This document shows positions 13,319 through 20,854 of a stretch of 64,000 nt of DNA, one piece after another. Under the pieces are notes generated by a model that had not been told where the DNA came from, did not search any database, and was given only the letters and a program-made list of their open reading frames with translations. This stretch comes from Balneola sp. (GTDB lineage: Bacteria > Bacteroidota > Rhodothermia > Balneolales > Balneolaceae): NCBI GenBank assembly GCA_002694685.1, contig NZMW01000005.1, positions 1 to 64,000 of the forward strand, given 5' to 3'. Numbering within the stretch: position 1 is the stretch's first letter; each line of letters opens with the position of its first letter. The position numbers and the translations under genes are program-made.

Positions 13319-16300
13319 ATGTTTAATTTCAAGCAGATCTCCCTGTCAATAATTATCCTTTTTATGGGGGTTAATTTCTCACTTGCTCAGGGCAATTCTA
13401 CCTCAGGGAATGGTCGTATTACAGGTACAATCACAGATGCCAATTCAGGAGAAACTTTGATTGGTGTTAATGTCACTATTAAAGGTACAAGTATTGGGTC
13501 TGCAACAGATATAGATGGACAGTACACAATCCGTAGGGTTCCAGCCGGAGGGCACACTTTGGTGATAAGTTATATTGGGTACAACAGTGTTGAAGAAGTT
13601 ATTCAGGTTACCGGAGGTGAGACTTTGGAATTTAATGCTGAATTGATGCAGGAGACACTGGAAGGAAATGAGGTGACAATTAGCGCACAGCGAGAAGGGC
13701 AAATAGAGGCTATAAATCAGCAAATACAGTCTGATAATATTGTCAATGTAGTATCTGAAACTAAAATTCAAGAACTGCCAGACTTTAATGCAGCTTCTGC
13801 ATTAGGCAGACTCCCGGGTGTATCAACTACACAAAGTTCCGGAGAGGATAACAAAGTGGTAATTCGTGGACTTTCTCCTGAATACAATTCCATTGAAATT
13901 GAAGGTGTGCAATTAGCTTCAACAGGTAGTTCATCAATCGGGCTTTCATCAAATCCTGATGCAGGTGGAGGGCGAGTGAATAATGATCGTAGTGTTGACT
14001 TGACCATGGTGTCACCTTACATGATTCGCATGATTGAGGTTTACAAATCATTGACTCCCGACATGAATGCAAACTCGATTGGTGGAACTGTAAATATGGA
14101 GCTTAGAAAAGCACCTGAAGGCTTCCATTGGGATGCTATGTGGCAACAAGGTTACACAGCTAAAAGCAATACGCTGGGTAATTATCGTGCCGTTGGTTCA
14201 GTTAGTGATCGATTTTTTAATAACAAATTTGGTGTTTACGCTTTAGTTAATGCTGAGTCGTATGACAGAAACTCTGATAATTTAAATACCGGCTATGGAA
14301 TAGCAGGGTCAATTGAAGAGGCGGATCCTGAAACCGGATATCGTCCTGTGGAAGTAAATAATGTCAGCTTTAACCGACATCTGGAAAATCGAAATAGATT
14401 AGGGGCCAATGTTATTATGGATTATGACCTGGGCAAGGGTTCCTTAAAGTTCGTGAATATGTTTGCCTCCATAAGGTCTGACTTTACGGATCATAACCAG
14501 AGCGTAAACTACAACAACGGACGTATGGACTGGAGGTTGAGTCTAGGTGAAACCGAAATTCAGCAGCAAGTGCATTCATTACGTTTGGACTATGACTTAG
14601 ACTGGTTAGTTGTTGATTTTTCAGGTAGTTATACAGGAGCAAGAAATACGTTAGAAGATTCTCCGGTATTAGCTTTTAATCAAACTCAAGCTGTAAACCC
14701 TGCACCTCGGGAAAATGTACAACCAGAAGACTTGGTTAGTCGACAGGAAAATTTTCGAGGGGTTGAAAATGTTATTCTAAGAAGCGGAAACCTGTTTAGT
14801 AACTACTATGCAGAAGATAAATTCACATATAAAGCTAATTTCGAAATCCCATTCAATATCGGTTCAACAGCTAATGGGTTTTTCAAAACCGGAGCACAGT
14901 ATGTTGACCAAACTACTTCCACAGATCAAGAAACACCATATCTAGGATTTGATGGTAACGCCAACTCTACTGATGGTGGTATTGCGAATAGCTTAGCAAG
15001 AACGTTGCGGGATGAGTTTGGACTTCAAACTAATGATCAAGGCTTCTTTACCGGAACGACTTTACAAGCACAGAATGAAGATTTGTATGACCCTTTTATA
15101 GGTAACAATTTTGGGAGCATTTATTTTGCATCAGCGACAGACCGGTTAGTTAATATTCTAAACTATGTGATTGGCAACCCGGATTTTGATGCTTCTAATT
15201 CAGAGATAAGCTCTGGAGCTCAGGGTGGATGGTATGATGGCCCTTATCAACAGCTATCCAATGATTACTCTTATGATGAGAATTATTTTGCCACTTACGC
15301 CATGTCCAAAATCAGCATATCTAAGCTAATGGTTATTGGTGGAGTAAGGTATGAGGAAGTAAACTCTGAATTCTTTGCTTATAACGCCCGTGATCAGCGT
15401 AATGCTCAGGCTCAGATCATGTACGACACTACCTCAACCGCAACAAATCGCTTTATGTTGCCGATGGTTCAAGCCAGGTATTCCGTTACCGATTGGATGG
15501 ATGTGAGGTATGCCTACACTCAAACGTTATCACGTCCTGATTACAACTTACTATCACCAAAATTTACTATTACTCAGGGCAATTCTATTTATACCGGTAA
15601 CCCGGAATTAGAGCCTGCCAAAGCCTACAATCATGATATTAATGCAACATTTCATGCAAATAAATTGGGCTTACTTTCATTGGGGGTTTTCCAGAAAACA
15701 ATTGAGAACTTTGTTTACAACGCGAGCTACAAACTAAATCTCGCTGAAGAAGCAGGTATCGACCAAACTTCAAATTATCAACTCGTTTGTAGTCAGTATT
15801 ACCGCGATAAGTATGGTGAACAATATCCTTCTATAAACAGCTGTCAGGATGGATCACTTTTAATTTCACCGACTATCAACCCTTCTACAGGTGCAACAGC
15901 TACTGTTAACAAACCACTTAATAACCCAAATGATGGATTAGTACGAGGTATTGAAGTCGACTTCCAGCATAACTTCTGGTACATGCCAAAGCCTTTCAAC
16001 AATATGGTTTTTGGTGTTAACTATGCACGGATCTTTTCTGAAATAGAAACACCTTTTTATGATGAAGATTTTAGAATTGAAGGTGAGGGACGTGATGCAG
16101 AGCGAATTGATTTCTTAGTTGATTCTTCATTCACATCAAGATTAGCAGGACAGCCTAATCACGTTATGAACACTTACCTGGGATTTGACTACAAAGGTTT
16201 TTCTACAAGAGTCTCAGTACTACTAACTACCAATACATTTGGAGGCAGTGGAGGTCGTTATCCCGAAAATGATCGATTCAGTACTGACTATCTAAAAATA

Positions 16301-16474
16301 GATTATTCAGCTAAGTATAAGCTGGAAATGTTGGGCGGAAGCAGTGAAATATTCTTAGACGTCACCAACCTGAACAATGCTAATAATCAACAGGTGCAGC
16401 GATCTATAAATGGGGATACGAATATCCAGAATTATGGGTGGACGGCTAATTTGGGCTTCAGGGTCAGATACTAA
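13319..16474 (+). CDS. TonB-dependent outer-membrane receptor, probable xylo-oligosaccharide importer
   Basis: This is an outer-membrane beta-barrel that would take up oligosaccharides with TonB/ExbBD energy. The order is: signal peptide (cleaved near SLAQ, residue 24), CarboxypepD_reg-like domain (about 32-115), plug with KIQELPDFNAASALGRLPGV (about 150-260), and a long barrel ending in an aromatic residue (LGFRVRY). The plug style (VVIRGLSPEYNSIEIEG, MIRMIEVYKSLTPDMNANSIGG) recalls the Xanthomonas/Caulobacter-type TonB receptors more than SusC. No SusD-like gene follows. Two T9SS-tailed proteins follow instead, after 47 and 82 bases. Family assignment is firm and xylan specificity is from context. 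Confidence 0.9.
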   Translation: MFNFKQISLSIIILFMGVNFSLAQGNSTSGNGRITGTITDANSGETLIGVNVTIKGTSIGSATDIDGQYTIRRVPAGGHTLVISYIGYNSVEEVIQVTGGETLEFNAELMQETLEGNEVTISAQREGQIEAINQQIQSDNIVNVVSETKIQELPDFNAASALGRLPGVSTTQSSGEDNKVVIRGLSPEYNSIEIEGVQLASTGSSSIGLSSNPDAGGGRVNNDRSVDLTMVSPYMIRMIEVYKSLTPDMNANSIGGTVNMELRKAPEGFHWDAMWQQGYTAKSNTLGNYRAVGSVSDRFFNNKFGVYALVNAESYDRNSDNLNTGYGIAGSIEEADPETGYRPVEVNNVSFNRHLENRNRLGANVIMDYDLGKGSLKFVNMFASIRSDFTDHNQSVNYNNGRMDWRLSLGETEIQQQVHSLRLDYDLDWLVVDFSGSYTGARNTLEDSPVLAFNQTQAVNPAPRENVQPEDLVSRQENFRGVENVILRSGNLFSNYYAEDKFTYKANFEIPFNIGSTANGFFKTGAQYVDQTTSTDQETPYLGFDGNANSTDGGIANSLARTLRDEFGLQTNDQGFFTGTTLQAQNEDLYDPFIGNNFGSIYFASATDRLVNILNYVIGNPDFDASNSEISSGAQGGWYDGPYQQLSNDYSYDENYFATYAMSKISISKLMVIGGVRYEEVNSEFFAYNARDQRNAQAQIMYDTTSTATNRFMLPMVQARYSVTDWMDVRYAYTQTLSRPDYNLLSPKFTITQGNSIYTGNPELEPAKAYNHDINATFHANKLGLLSLGVFQKTIENFVYNASYKLNLAEEAGIDQTSNYQLVCSQYYRDKYGEQYPSINSCQDGSLLISPTINPSTGATATVNKPLNNPNDGLVRGIEVDFQHNFWYMPKPFNNMVFGVNYARIFSEIETPFYDEDFRIEGEGRDAERIDFLVDSSFTSRLAGQPNHVMNTYLGFDYKGFSTRVSVLLTTNTFGGSGGRYPENDRFSTDYLKIDYSAKYKLEMLGGSSEIFLDVTNLNNANNQQVQRSINGDTNIQNYGWTANLGFRVRY

Positions 16475-16521
16475 ATCACAACAAAAACGAAATTTACTAA
16501 TAACAATAAACAGGAGTTAAT

Positions 16522-18372
16522 ATGAAGCGATTGTTACTACTTATTTCTTTCGCAGTATTATTCAGTAGTGCATCATTGATGGCACAGAAAGATACCGTAG
16601 AGGTACAGGGTTATTATGAATCCGACTTTACATACGGAACTTTAAACCAAGCCATTACGGATGTAAAAGCTAACGGAGATATAAACAACACTGTGTTTAA
16701 GTTATCTCCCTATGAAGTGTACGTGCTGACAAGCAGTATCTTTATGGATATCGGCGAGAACCTTGAAATCGTGGCACCCAAGCCATTAAAAGCAGGTCAA
16801 GGTGATGCTGAGGCAATTCAAAATTCAGCTCCACCACAAATTGTCTGGACTGAAGAAGAAATTGACAGAACCTATATCATTCAAACTTATGGTGATGTAG
16901 TCATGGAGAATATTTGGGTAAGAGGTGCTGATATCCAAGGTAATCAAGTTCAAACAGGAATTGTTTTTGAGGATACAGTTGCCACCGGTAGTGAGCCTGA
17001 TAAAGAGTACGGAACTTTTGAAGGTGTGATATTTGATTACTTCCCAATTGGTGCAGAATCGGGTGGGTCAATTACCGTTAAGGCCGATAATTTTGTTGGT
17101 GTTTTTAGAAATTCATATTTCAGAAATCTGACGGATTCTCACTTCCAGTATTATGGAAGAGCTGTTTCTTTCCCTTACCAATCCACGGAATTTCACTATG
17201 ACAGCCTTTTATTTGAAAATACAACGTTTTCAAATCTTAGCCGCATCGTGATGATGGAGGGTAATCAGTACGCCTCCAATATCCACCTAAACCACGTGAC
17301 CATGATTAACTCATTGGAGTGGGCTATACAGACCGGTTGGTGGGAAGATCTTTCAATCACGAACTCCATTTTTGTTAACACAAACATGATAGGTCAAAGA
17401 CCTGTTGACGTATGCCCTGACGGCACTGATGCTGATATTGATGATTTTTATGCAGGTGAATGTAATCCTTTTGGTGGAGGCTTAGTTCAAAACCCAACTC
17501 TTGTAGATTCAATAGGTTTTGAAGTTGACTACACAGATCAAGACCGACAAATCTACATCGGTAATAATGTGATCTATCAAGAAGAATACCTGAAAGATTG
17601 GTACATGGAGAGTCCATGGAGTCAGGAGCAGATTCAGACTCGTAACGATATTCTCCTTCGTTTTGAGTCTCCGGCTATCGGGCCTGAAACATTTGAATAC
17701 ATAGATTCAACTGACAGTGAAGGGAATGATGTATTTCCACTGATGACCATAGATACTACCAGTTTTTATGACGACCCGGCTGATTTCATTGTGCCTGCTA
17801 CAAATCAGGATACAATGCTGCAGTTTGTAATGTTTAAGTGGAGTGATAACTCTGATATCGACTGGTCATACAAACCACTTGCTGGATTTGAGCAAGAATG
17901 GCCTCTCCCGGAAAATATGGCTTATAACAATTCCCAATACCAAACAGCAGCATGGGGCGGATACCCTATGGGTGACCTAAACTGGTACCCTGATCAGCTT
18001 GCTGACTGGGAAGCTAATCAAAGAGATGCTGACTGGGAGCGTATAGAGGATTATTTAAACAACGGGGTGACTGTAAGTTCAGAAATCGAGGCGAGTACTC
18101 CAGATGGATTTACATTGAGTCAAAACTACCCTAATCCATTTAACCCAACCACGGTTATTCCATACTCTATGCCGAAAGCAGGAGACATTCAGCTAAAAGT
18201 ATTCAATACTCTTGGGCAGGAAGTAATGACATTGTTTGAAGGACGGCAGCAAGCCGGTAATCATTCGGTAACGTTCAACGCTTCAAATCTTTCAAGTGGT
18301 ATTTATTTCTACCGCTTACAAACTCAGGATGGTGCAGTTGTCTTGACCCGAAAATTAACACTTATCAAATAA
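16522..18372 (+). CDS. secreted beta-helix-like protein with T9SS tail
   Basis: I do not recognise a catalytic family. The 616 residues start with a signal peptide (cleaved near LMAQ, residue 22). The middle part (about 100-320) alternates short strands, N/G turns and phrases such as GVIFDYFPIG, VGVFRNSYFRNL, LLFENTTFSNLS and LNHVTMINS. This resembles a right-handed parallel beta-helix as in polysaccharide-binding or lyase proteins. The last 85 residues are a T9SS sorting domain with QNYPNPFNPTT and a KLTLIK end. With the TonB receptor directly upstream, it may be a surface glycan-binding protein in the place that SusD takes in other loci. That role is inference. Confidence 0.7.
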   Translation: MKRLLLLISFAVLFSSASLMAQKDTVEVQGYYESDFTYGTLNQAITDVKANGDINNTVFKLSPYEVYVLTSSIFMDIGENLEIVAPKPLKAGQGDAEAIQNSAPPQIVWTEEEIDRTYIIQTYGDVVMENIWVRGADIQGNQVQTGIVFEDTVATGSEPDKEYGTFEGVIFDYFPIGAESGGSITVKADNFVGVFRNSYFRNLTDSHFQYYGRAVSFPYQSTEFHYDSLLFENTTFSNLSRIVMMEGNQYASNIHLNHVTMINSLEWAIQTGWWEDLSITNSIFVNTNMIGQRPVDVCPDGTDADIDDFYAGECNPFGGGLVQNPTLVDSIGFEVDYTDQDRQIYIGNNVIYQEEYLKDWYMESPWSQEQIQTRNDILLRFESPAIGPETFEYIDSTDSEGNDVFPLMTIDTTSFYDDPADFIVPATNQDTMLQFVMFKWSDNSDIDWSYKPLAGFEQEWPLPENMAYNNSQYQTAAWGGYPMGDLNWYPDQLADWEANQRDADWERIEDYLNNGVTVSSEIEASTPDGFTLSQNYPNPFNPTTVIPYSMPKAGDIQLKVFNTLGQEVMTLFEGRQQAGNHSVTFNASNLSSGIYFYRLQTQDGAVVLTRKLTLIK

Positions 18373-18384
18373 TAGTAGGACTTA

Positions 18385-18419
18385 TATGCCTTGCGAGAAA
18401 TATGCTCTCGCAAGGCATA
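18385..18419 (+). repeat. perfect 14-bp hairpin between two surface-protein genes
   Basis: TATGCCTTGCGAGA (18385-18398) is followed by a 7-base loop and its exact inverse TCTCGCAAGGCATA (18406-18419). No T-run follows, so it is more likely an mRNA-stabilising or partial-termination hairpin inside the operon than a full terminator. Confidence 0.7.
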
Positions 18420-18454
18420 CCCTATTTTAACAACAACAAAATGTGAGGATTAAT

Positions 18455-20776
18455 ATGAAAAGGTTTACTACGATTAGTGCACTTTTTATGCTCATGCTTT
18501 TTTTAAGTACGAGTGTTTTATATGCGCAAAGCAACAATTTTGATGGGGATACCCTTGGGCAGCCCTATGGAACAACGAGTTGGCAAGCTGGTGATATATC
18601 AGCAACTGTTGATTCACTGGTTATAGATACTGTTACATATAGTAACGTATTAAAGGTGGAAGTAAATAATTATAACGCCGCTCCATTTTTAGCATTTACA
18701 ATACCGGGTGGCTTAACACTTGCAGATTACGATACACTATCTTTTAGTGGATACTTTGCCACTGGTGACGTTGGCTATAAAACAATTTCAGCAGTTGTTT
18801 CAGAAGACTCTCTATCAGGTCCATTTCTTGACGACAGTGGAGAAAACGATGTAATAGGAAGTGTTGATAGATCAATGGGTGCTTCTACTGGTTGGGAAGA
18901 AATTAAAATCCCTATCGATAATGACAGAACTGAACTAAGTGGCACTGTTTACATTGGATTTGGGATTAGTGCAGCAGGTACCGCAAATAGTGAAAACACT
19001 GTTTGGTATGCTGATAATGTAGCTTTAAATGCTATACCTATTGAGTTAAGCTCAGGTCCTATTACAGCTTGGGCTCGTGATGCTTCATATAACGCATGGC
19101 CTATAATTAAAGACGGATCTACTCCTGCAGGTTCTGCAAGTTTAGGTGCAGAAACAACTATAGCCGGTGGTTCTTGGGCCGGTTTAAGAGGAGCGTTTGC
19201 ACCGATAACAGCTACTGAAGGTGCGGGTAACGCATTTGTTATTACAGGTAAAATGGAGCTTAATGCAAGCCTTGGTTCCGGATATACTCCTCTTCGATAC
19301 GCTTTAACAAACCATGAAGAGATGGGAATCATTGCTAACGAAAATACTGCTGATGCAGTCTGGAATGGTACAAGTAGTGGTTCTGGATATTCGTTTATTC
19401 CTTTATCAGGTGCAGGAACTTTAGCCAATGGTGGCGGCGGTTCGGGAACAGTCTGGACTATTAATAGTGGTAACTGGTTAAGTACTTATAGCAATAATGG
19501 TGGTCCAGCCGGGACGTTTTACCAAATTCCTGCATTAGCTGAAATAGGTGCCGGTGTTTATGATTGGGCTATTTCCGTGCAACCAGTTGGTGATGGTATG
19601 AGTGAAATTCGTTTTCTCTTAATTCATGAAGATGACGATTACTATTTTGCCGGAACAACAATGGCAGAAACAACTAGCTCAACCTTTAATTCAATAGCTT
19701 TTGGATTCCAGGGATTTGATACTGTTGAAGATTTCACACAGGTAGATTTCTCTGAAGTTGAAGCCGTGAATGATGATCCTATAGAAATTCCAACTCCTGC
19801 TTTCTTCGATCACTTTATGGCCATCGAAAGATTCGGATTCATAGGTGGTAAAGTTGGTGGTGACTGGACGCTTACTCCTGGTGACTTTACAGGAAATACA
19901 TCTATTTCAGGAACAGCGGGAGCAGATACAGCAGCTCTTCGTTCAGGATTTGATGTGCCTTTCACTACAACATCTGATGAAGCTTTGGTTATTGAAGCTG
20001 AAGTTACTTTTGAGGGTGGTGGATTTGGTGAAGACGGAAGCTTTAAGTTTGGTGTATTTAGTGCATCTGATCCTGGTTCTGTAGATTCTACAGAAGCTAA
20101 CGGATATACTTGGAATGGCAGCGAAGCCGGCCATAGCGGGTATCTATTTACTCCGGGTTCCGGAGTTGATGCTATTGTTGATGGTGTCTGGTACGATGCT
20201 TCTGGATCTGGTGCTTACTCAGTTGAAGAACACGAAGATACAGGAACTCCAGCAGCAGGTACATATGATTTAGCTATTTCATTGCAATCAACTTCTGCAG
20301 GAATGGATATTCGATACTCTCTAACAAGTGAAGACGGATATGTATTTGAATATGCAACTGTTGATGCAGACGGCTCTTTTGAGTCATTTGAAGCTATTAA
20401 CTTTGCAATTAGCAATTCAACTACAACAGGAATGTCTATTGCTGATCTGGAAATCTCTTCAGGTGCTGCGATTACCGTTTCTAATGAAGTAGTAGATAAC
20501 TCTCAGTTACCTAAATCATTCTCATTAGGACAGAATTACCCGAATCCGTTCAACCCAACAACCAACATCAATTTTGATCTGCCACAAGCTGCAGATGTTC
20601 AATTGACCGTATTTAACATGTTGGGTCAAAGAGTTATGACTCTGGTTGATAATAGAATGGAAGCCGGTGCACACAAAGTAACCTTTGATGCACGCAACCT
20701 TGCAAGTGGTATGTACATGTACCGCATCGAGGCTGGCAGCTTTATCAATACTAAGAAAATGATGCTTATTAAATAG
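18455..20776 (+). CDS. secreted multidomain protein with duplicated beta-sandwich-like units and T9SS tail
   Basis: No enzyme family is recognised. The ATG at 18455 is chosen over an in-frame GTG at 18443 because GAGGA at 18445-18449 lies in front of it and the signal peptide (MKRFTTISALFMLML..., cleaved near LYAQ) then starts normally. Residues about 28-200 form a carbohydrate-module-like beta sandwich (NFDGDTLGQPYGTTSW). Two related units of about 200 residues follow (about 205-435 and 440-675), sharing GSGY/HSGY...VW...GVYDWAIS/GTYDLAIS. The last 85 residues are a T9SS tail. There are no obvious catalytic acids. It may be a surface glycan-binding protein working with the TonB receptor, from position only. 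Confidence 0.7.
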   Translation: MKRFTTISALFMLMLFLSTSVLYAQSNNFDGDTLGQPYGTTSWQAGDISATVDSLVIDTVTYSNVLKVEVNNYNAAPFLAFTIPGGLTLADYDTLSFSGYFATGDVGYKTISAVVSEDSLSGPFLDDSGENDVIGSVDRSMGASTGWEEIKIPIDNDRTELSGTVYIGFGISAAGTANSENTVWYADNVALNAIPIELSSGPITAWARDASYNAWPIIKDGSTPAGSASLGAETTIAGGSWAGLRGAFAPITATEGAGNAFVITGKMELNASLGSGYTPLRYALTNHEEMGIIANENTADAVWNGTSSGSGYSFIPLSGAGTLANGGGGSGTVWTINSGNWLSTYSNNGGPAGTFYQIPALAEIGAGVYDWAISVQPVGDGMSEIRFLLIHEDDDYYFAGTTMAETTSSTFNSIAFGFQGFDTVEDFTQVDFSEVEAVNDDPIEIPTPAFFDHFMAIERFGFIGGKVGGDWTLTPGDFTGNTSISGTAGADTAALRSGFDVPFTTTSDEALVIEAEVTFEGGGFGEDGSFKFGVFSASDPGSVDSTEANGYTWNGSEAGHSGYLFTPGSGVDAIVDGVWYDASGSGAYSVEEHEDTGTPAAGTYDLAISLQSTSAGMDIRYSLTSEDGYVFEYATVDADGSFESFEAINFAISNSTTTGMSIADLEISSGAAITVSNEVVDNSQLPKSFSLGQNYPNPFNPTTNINFDLPQAADVQLTVFNMLGQRVMTLVDNRMEAGAHKVTFDARNLASGMYMYRIEAGSFINTKKMMLIK

Positions 20777-20820: not shown

Positions 20821-20854
20821 AAACCTGTCTCTTTAATAGGAGGCAGGTTTTTTT
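20821..20854 (+). terminator. terminator of the TonB receptor operon
   Basis: AAACCTGTCTC (20821-20831) pairs with GAGGCAGGTTT (20840-20850), followed by more T up to 20854. It closes the three-gene unit that starts at 13319. Confidence 0.88.

Follow-up and report, generated by a model that had tools for sequence, protein, structure and literature searches.

The usual mark of a polysaccharide utilisation locus is a susC–susD pair. The xylan locus of a Balneola sp. genome (Balneolaceae) poses the question of what accompanies a TonB-dependent receptor when the genes behind it encode two large exported proteins and no SusD. A sequence-only reading of the stretch of DNA analysed here (64,000 nucleotides, contig NZMW01000005.1; the window) had placed these two proteins where SusD would be expected and had proposed that they may perform the capture step.

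The trio in this locus is real. It comprises three intact genes on the forward strand, encoding the receptor (13319..16474, 1051 aa), P2 (16522..18372, 616 aa) and P3 (18455..20776 from an ATG, with an alternative GTG start at 18443). As the sequence-only reading had it, P2 and P3 end in T9SS tails that pass curated cut-offs, located at aa 536–607 of P2 (18127..18342; PF18962, E 5.3e-11) and aa 699–774 of P3 (20537..20764; PF18962, E 1e-11). Scores for P2 and P3 are 43.1 and 45.4 bits on PF18962 (cut-off 27) and 45.6 and 46.6 bits on TIGR04183 (cut-off 23). Both have an N-terminal hydrophobic helix in the sequence and in the structure models, and the T9SS component SprA is encoded in the same genome (SprA_N, 327.5 bits). 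By sorting domain, N-terminal helix and genomic translocon, both proteins are predicted T9SS type A cargo. The terminator proposed 3' of P3 was recovered as a terminator-like hairpin (20821..20850, forward strand). A second, 14-bp hairpin with a weak T tract, an addition to the earlier description, lies between P2 and P3 (18385..18419, forward strand); it is the stronger of the two (z = -5.56 for 18370–18460) and, in a pattern search, occurs once in the genome.

Receptor class and SusD proteins of the genome

The receptor, which carries an N-terminal carboxypeptidase-regulatory-like domain (Pfam Plug and CarbopepD_reg_2), scores 321.8 bits on TIGR01782 ("TonB-Xanth-Caul") against a cut-off of 310, matching positions 3–867 of the 868 in the profile. 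On the SusC profile TIGR04056 it reaches 77 bits against a cut-off of 368.25, in the N-terminal part only, and the SusC signature TIGR04057 is not among its matches in the NCBIfam search. These profile matches assign the receptor to the TIGR01782 class rather than to SusC/RagA. Because it is of this class, a SusD is not to be expected beside it, and the earlier expectation of one fails.

The absence of SusD itself was borne out. None was found among the 30 window proteins searched with Pfam (of 40 open reading frames of at least 150 aa); P2 and P3 have no PF07980 or PF14322 match at E up to 1, and the 57 members of the P2 family described below have none at E up to 0.1. A genome-wide search with PF07980 and PF14322 returned two SusD loci only, on other contigs, each directly after a true SusC (782.5 and 532.5 bits on TIGR04056, both with the TIGR04057 signature). 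This search, together with the finding that both SusD genes adjoin true SusC genes, rules out a SusD that was missed or is located elsewhere for this receptor.

More broadly, P2 often coexists with SusD: SusD is present in 15 of 25 P2-bearing genomes, the other 10 having no PF07980 match, and the available text of PMC3534657 reports a SusCDE operon in Melioribacter roseus. SusD-like proteins are said, in the accessible part of PMC8319329, to be known from Bacteroidetes only.

Fold and family of P2 and P3

The model of P2 is a confident right-handed beta-helix (pLDDT 88), in agreement with the fold first proposed for it. Its nearest solved relative by VIA-align is the C-terminal helix of the two-domain PL6 alginate lyase BcAlyPL6 (Z 29.7 over 303 residues, rmsd 2.8). 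The next C-terminal PL6 domain follows at Z 24.3, whereas the catalytic PL6 chains reach only Z 15.9 and 12.2. The relation to the C-terminal PL6 domain is also detectable in sequence (E 2e-10). P2 thus resembles the C-terminal domain of lyases such as BcAlyPL6 and Patl3640, but is without their catalytic helix at the N-terminus; according to the available part of PMC11381880, what that C-terminal domain does is unknown. A plain Foldseek search with P2 found no match within E 0.001, and its top rows look like tail matches. Other structural neighbours of P2 are mostly lyases, epimerases and hydrolases, including the lyase RbmB (Z 20.5) and a Paenibacillus alginate lyase (Z 20.3).

A P2 family was defined here by a homologous body, a GDLNW motif and a gene position directly after a non-SusC TonB receptor, and the window protein shows all three features of this definition, which was drawn from the same data. 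Genome searches used the body only, without the T9SS tail. The motif, GGYPMGDLNWYP (aa 479–490; 17956..17991, forward strand), is kept whatever the locus, and G484, D485, N487, W488 and P490 are invariant in 57 sequences. D485, in this motif near the tail, is the sole strictly invariant acid of the family; elsewhere, H258 is invariant and R342 is 95% conserved. The helix body diverges to about 20–30% identity while the motif stays, as would be expected for changing ligands.

That either protein might belong to a known enzyme family had been named as a challenge to the earlier reading; P2 and P3 match no Pfam or NCBIfam enzyme family. A known enzyme was likewise rejected for the P2 family, in which no enzyme family is matched over cut-off by the window protein or the 57 members; weak matches are confined to one member for GH18 (E 0.03) and one for GH2_N (E 0.09). 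Neither the window protein nor the 57 members match a PL6 family in Pfam. DUF4957 is weakly matched by five of the 57 (best E 0.0006) and DUF5123 by one (best E 0.04); the window P2 matches neither in Pfam.

The duplicated beta-sandwich described for P3 was recovered as two lectin-type modules in the model, 28% identical over the aligned part: module A (aa 201–455; 19043..19807), a predicted legume-lectin-like sandwich, and module B (aa 453–684; 19799..20494), its diverged, thrombospondin-C/lectin-like relative. In Pfam, neither module has a match that reaches the cut-off, whether in the window protein or in three relatives. The N-terminal domain (18524..19042) gives the only match of P3 to Pfam CBM families, weakly to CBM30 and below cut-off (E 0.1, 12.9 bits against 27). 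The P3 model rests on 10 aligned sequences, three of them partial genes, with a mean pLDDT of 67; since residues 20–201 fall under 50, no fold is claimed for the N-terminal domain. In complete P3 relatives, one to three A-like copies precede B, and a relative of the N-terminal domain occurs in one other P3 (L070).

Pairing of receptor and P2 across genomes

A TonB receptor lies directly upstream of P2, on the same strand, in 70 of the 79 loci fetched with P2 (median gap 71 bp), as detected with a purpose-made profile of 17 mostly non-SusC receptors. The non-SusC label in these loci relies on home-made profiles (that for SusC built from two sequences), with NCBIfam applied to 10 receptors only. 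No receptor is found beside P2 in four loci (L116, L117, L123 and L126), and in two outside the 70 (L099 and L128) P2 was lost to antisense reading frames in ORF calling. P2 genes directly follow a receptor in 71 of 77 cases, compared with 0 of 50 for other T9SS genes, a comparison that is biased because P2 already occupies the post-receptor place in these loci.

A receptor-first sample, independent of P2, was therefore made, comprising 69 TIGR01782 receptors from 37 of 148 genomes (at most five scored per genome). Among receptors scoring 310–425 bits, P2 is the next gene in 38 of 47 and another T9SS-tailed protein in four more; above 440 bits, P2 is next in 0 of 22, the 425/440-bit split having been chosen post hoc. 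Two loci in which ORF calling found P2 in two frames (L212 and L226) are both counted as having P2. Four of the 47 have neither neighbour (L204, L205, L227 and L241).

The distances of receptors and P2 proteins are strongly correlated (Mantel r 0.93, 0 of 2000 permutations) across 57 pairs, all complete, with one locus left out whose receptor is split over two ORFs (L066); nearest neighbours of receptor and P2 agree in only 31 of the 57. Correlated distances are also expected from linkage alone. In nine loci, including some labelled KSB1, Melioribacteraceae and Rhodothermia, the receptor is 56–61% and P2 52–59% identical to the window pair. Second pairs within one genome are far more diverged, with receptors 27–37% and P2 proteins 20–29% identical in eight of nine comparisons (nine evaluated of 19 listed). 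At E 1e-10, 350 of 394 genomes of the phylum have no P2. Judged from these gene neighbourhoods and distances, the receptor–P2 pairing is strong.

Conservation of the whole trio held in part. The receptor–P2 pair is widely conserved, and a P3-module gene follows P2 in 11 of 11 loci of the window's clade (six as partial genes at contig ends); eight of these 11 loci carry, in the fetched stretch, a homologue of the window's GH10, GH30, GH67, glucuronoyl esterase or XylA. Against the trio as a general unit, the pair-bearing xylan-type loci L046, L050–L052, L054 and L055 have no P3 behind P2. Its modules were found in six of 296 genomes, only in those carrying the window's clade of the pair, and 16 of 17 hits lie in a gene adjoining P2.

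A proposed uptake unit and its alternatives

The favoured model, which we consider somewhat more probable than its competitors taken together, is a SusD-free outer-membrane uptake unit for glycans, here xylan oligosaccharides, with P2 as the dedicated partner of the TIGR01782 receptor and P3 as a longer-range glycan-binding protein. In this model, the locus supplies T9SS-tailed enzymes, GH10 and GH30-like, that would generate the oligosaccharides. P3, a T9SS-tailed string of lectin-like modules in the position of SusE/SGBP, would bind glycan at longer range on the surface. P2, retained at the surface in a physical complex with the receptor, would present glycan to the opening of the barrel or cap it there. 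SusD plays this part for SusC, and BtuG for BtuB, although the fold of P2 is unrelated to theirs and its predicted export route is a different one. The receptor would import the oligosaccharides with TonB energy, and other enzymes of the locus together with MFS and SSF carriers would complete breakdown and uptake. Most probably, P2 serves this receptor as its dedicated partner at the cell surface, and P3 binds glycan there; the physical complex, surface retention, glycan binding, lid or capture action and xylan specificity are inferred.

The arrangement is reminiscent of the SusC/SusD pedal-bin importer with SusE/SGBP, where a TonB receptor gene is also followed by a surface partner and then a binding protein in a glycan-degradation locus. 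It differs in that the receptor matches TIGR01782 rather than TIGR04056 and P2 is a T9SS-tailed beta-helix, whereas SusD is an alpha-helical lipoprotein. A non-SusD surface lid on a TonB transporter has a precedent, established by structure, in the vitamin B12 importer BtuB–BtuG (available text of PMC10404256); here the lid is proposed from genes and single-chain models. BtuG is a B12-binding beta-propeller lipoprotein, in contrast to a beta-helical T9SS cargo of glycan loci. TonB-dependent glycan transport is described in Caulobacter (PMC11658791, in part), where MalA and NagA import glycans outside the SusC clade (PMC11658791 and PMC8319329, accessible text), and one table of PMC8319329 links 82 non-SusC transporters to CAZymes. 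In a control, TIGR01782 was matched over cut-off in Caulobacter too, and the accessible portions of both papers mention no P2-like partner.

In a literature search of titles and the starts of abstracts among the matches listed, with preprints and most subscription papers outside its coverage, the receptor–P2 pairing was described nowhere. Overall, the sequence-only interpretation is partly supported, and the receptor and P2 may constitute an overlooked sugar-uptake device. If the pair is a functional equivalent of SusCD, it could reveal loci for glycan uptake in genomes that look empty to susCD searches; a role would be suggested for a type of beta-helix known so far as a PL6-lyase domain of unknown role; and T9SS cargo would be able to serve as a receptor partner. 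More tentatively, and with the balance tipping against it, some TIGR01782 receptors of Bacteroidota and nearby phyla could form a class that uses T9SS-exported beta-helices as substrate-capturing lids. Such lidded TonB importers would be of a third kind, replacing SusCD where no SusD exists, in loci missed by searches that require susCD.

The same data bear on other readings of P2. T9SS cargo may be released from the cell, which would count against a surface partner. Because TIGR01782-type receptors occur outside T9SS bacteria, P2 need not be a lid; to our knowledge, T9SS is not expected in Caulobacter. The receptor could work alone, with P2 a secreted enzyme from a family not yet recognised, be it a lyase, a hydrolase or an esterase, and first after the receptor by chance, as the enzymes among its structural neighbours and the conserved H258 and R342 would allow. 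We consider this unlikely, given that the window P2 has no enzyme family and the marginal GH18 and GH2_N matches are all that its relatives offer, that in structure it matches the C-terminal part of PL6 far better than the catalytic part, that its one strictly invariant acid sits in the motif near the tail, and that a single enzyme family would have to be a fixed receptor neighbour across many loci.

Equally improbable is that P2 and P3 together concentrate glycan on the cell in the manner of SGBPs without touching a receptor that needs no lid. The variable number of lectin-like modules in P3, the T9SS tails suited to surface display and the non-SusC class of the receptor agree with this, but P2 keeps its place immediately downstream of the receptor, with which it co-varies; for P3 itself, with its narrow occurrence, an SGBP-like reading is favoured. 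A reading that we consider very improbable gives P2 no part in recognising glycans: it would instead help to assemble or anchor the receptor, or act as a structural adhesin. The conservation of GDLNW regardless of locus fits such a role, as does a gene of 575–592 aa after P2 in eight loci (L046, L050, L052, L054, L055, L134, L139 and L142), a PPIC-type isomerase in L046 and judged by size in the other seven. Neither the window nor its 11-locus clade has such an isomerase-like gene after P2, however, and the divergence of the P2 body around a constant motif is what changing ligands would predict.

A non-SusC receptor and its neighbors in a xylan locus

The genes for the TonB receptor (13319–16474), the T9SS-tailed right-handed β-helix protein P2 (16522–18372), and the T9SS-tailed, lectin-like protein P3 (18455–20776) are intact, share the forward strand, and sit inside a xylan locus, which bears out the observation of the three genes made in the sequence-only reading. 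The 5′ side comprises GH67, GH10, an MFS carrier, a second GH10, an enolase-superfamily protein, a LacI-type regulator, a xylulokinase-like kinase, and xylose isomerase. On the 3′ side are a sodium/solute symporter, a T9SS-tailed GH10, GH43, and a T9SS-tailed GH30-like xylanase (a match below curated cut-offs), followed by a GH2 β-galactosidase, a CotH-domain protein, a GDSL esterase, a glucuronoyl esterase, a fourth GH10, and GH115. The trio's nearest named relative is that of Gracilimonas mengyeensis (locus L065), a member of the 11-locus window clade (L065–L074 and L076). Eight of these loci have a homologue of the window's GH10, GH30, GH67, glucuronoyl esterase, or XylA; of the xylan-locus genes compared, L069 and L074 have the MFS carrier only, and L073 has none. 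In L066, the receptor 5′ of the P2 gene at 9001 is split into two open reading frames (284 and 780 amino acids) and may be broken or misassembled.

A SusD partner had been expected beside the receptor, a premise that its class corrects. The receptor scores 321.8 bits against the TonB-Xanth-Caul model TIGR01782 (cut-off 310) and 77 bits against the SusC model TIGR04056 (cut-off 368.25); by these profiles it is not a SusC, and its class gives no ground to expect SusD. The two SusD loci in the same genome (3.95 Mb, 17 contigs), on contigs C13 and C2, lie directly 3′ of receptors scoring 782.5 and 532.5 bits against TIGR04056. SusD thus adjoins other, true SusC-scoring receptors, leaving the window receptor without one. 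As judged by the SusD model PF07980 alone, a match is absent in 10 and present in 15 of 25 P2-bearing genomes chosen from 44. The Melioribacter roseus genome report describes one SusC, SusD, SusE operon, for starch (PMC3534657), which indicates that P2-type and SusCD-type systems are able to coexist.

Conservation of the receptor–P2 gene pair

A P2-body profile search of genome contigs confirmed 233 stretches, and the top 80 of these yielded 79 loci. The best P2 gene lies directly 3′ of a same-strand TonB receptor in 70 of them (median gap 71 bp); of the other nine, three are at contig ends, two have uncalled P2 open reading frames, and four are without an adjoining receptor. Wherever both scores are given, the SusC profile scores far below a receptor profile derived from 17 receptors in the same genomes. 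The sources are mostly metagenome-assembled genomes with rough taxon labels, which include Gracilimonas, Balneolaceae, Rhodothermaceae, KSB1, Melioribacteraceae, Ignavibacteriales, Calditrichia, Saprospiraceae, and Neomarinimicrobiota. P2 is not universal in the phylum, with matches at E ≤ 1e-10 in 44/394 genomes (first alignment, three candidates scored per genome).

To avoid selection by P2, receptors were also sampled directly with TIGR01782 (E ≤ 1e-85, 148 genomes of the phylum, no more than five scored candidates in each). This gave 69 receptors from 37 genomes; 62 were judged on retrieved downstream DNA, and the other seven are four from the window's own genome, one in locus L053, one inside locus L225, and one on contig G105:C22. 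When they were divided by bit score, a post hoc split picked with the data in view, P2 came next in 38 of the 47 receptors at 310–425 bits and another T9SS-tailed protein in four; four had neither as neighbor and one was at a contig end. Above 440 bits, neither P2 nor a T9SS tail came next in any of 22 (one at a contig end). In the window's own genome, each of the four TIGR01782 receptors above the cut-off precedes a gene for a T9SS-tailed protein: P2 twice, a leucine-rich-repeat protein once, and once a protein with the tail and no other family. The leucine-rich-repeat protein (L057:10239–15644, contig C12) is a possible further partner type. Beyond 440 bits, the gene next to a TIGR01782 receptor on its 3′ side often encodes a protein of ~345–385 amino acids with a VAM[SN] stretch near its end (L183, L187–L191, L194–L196), reminiscent of beta-propeller phytases and perhaps a different fixed partner for this sister class.

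Across 57 complete pairs, receptor and P2 distance matrices correlate with r = 0.93, a value reached in 0/2000 permutations; correlated distances would also follow from linkage alone. Nine loci, some labelled KSB1, Melioribacteraceae, and Rhodothermia, are 56%–61% (receptor) and 52%–59% (P2) identical to the window pair. Second pairs within one genome are 27%–37% and 20%–29% identical in eight of nine comparisons, the exception being L114 versus L130 (70% and 60%). Nearest neighbors are concordant in 31/57. Correlation and identities together argue that the pair is not reshuffled, the point gained beyond linkage; to judge from these comparisons, receptor and P2 are inherited together.

P2, P3, and a putative role in glycan uptake

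The P2 model (57 sequences, pLDDT 88) matches right-handed β-helix chains, followed by a β-sandwich tail. Among solved structures it matches the C-terminal domain of BcAlyPL6 best (Z 29.7 over 303 residues, rmsd 2.8), a domain that the P2 sequence profile also finds (E 2e-10). The C-terminal domain of Patl3640 ranks second (Z 24.3), ahead of two lyases of different types (Z 20.5 and 20.3); catalytic chains of PL6 and chondroitinase B score Z 15.9 to 12.1. PMC11381880 places this C-terminal second helix in about half of PL6 enzymes, its role stated as unknown and a part in substrate access proposed. Y67, N202, N233, H258, and T260 are invariant across the 57 sequences, as are G484, D485, N487, W488, and P490 near the tail; D485 is the sole invariant acid.

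Modules A and B of P3 are relatives of one another, with predicted lectin-type sandwich folds; their scores (Z 11.0–13.6) against legume lectins, thrombospondin C-terminal domains, and other structures point to a common fold, not to function. Ahead of module B, the window P3 carries a single A module, and complete relatives carry between one and three A-like modules. An A-module gene directly follows P2 in 11/11 window-clade loci, six of these genes being partial at contig ends (L068, L069, L070, L072, L073, L074). Module A occurs in 6/296 genomes, with 16 of 17 matches in a gene adjoining P2; the other (G138:C19:202–843) lies where a contig begins, ~8 kb away from the closest P2 match. P3 was not found after P2 in L046, L050–L052, L054, or L055, all with xylan or xylose genes nearby. 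This distribution suggests that P3 accompanies the window's clade of the pair rather than the whole P2 family.

The proposal of an alternative uptake architecture thereby gains strength, extending from a single locus to a conserved receptor–P2 gene pair of putative function, and its P3 component narrows to the window's clade. By analogy with SusCD and with BtuB–BtuG, whose β-propeller lid is demonstrated by structure (PMC10404256), the proposed task of P2 is to present glycan while seated on the receptor, and that of P3 to gather polysaccharide. The anatomy is similar to SusC–SusD–SusE, but every part is replaced. Such receptors also occur without a T9SS partner, and non-SusC transporters adjoining CAZyme genes are already known (PMC8319329), so a role for P2 as an enzyme or a binding protein is a possible alternative.

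Other arrangements were seen. L047:4552–17481 (relative G040) is a single xylan locus with three P2 and two P3 copies. A second cassette type (L046:2535–11808, L050:5653–14752) comprises receptor, P2, a ~585 amino acid lipoprotein-like protein (a PPIC-type isomerase in L046, the sole one scanned), and a ~775 amino acid protein that begins with a hydrophobic, membrane-like segment and matches no Pfam family above cut-off. In both loci it sits between a sodium/solute symporter and xylA–xylB; by gene sizes alone, it also occurs in L052, L054, L055, L134, L138, and L139. Between the window's P2 and P3 genes lies a 14-bp hairpin (18385–18419; z −5.56), single copy in its genome, that could set the P2:P3 ratio; in the close relative L065 the two genes are only ~15 bases apart.
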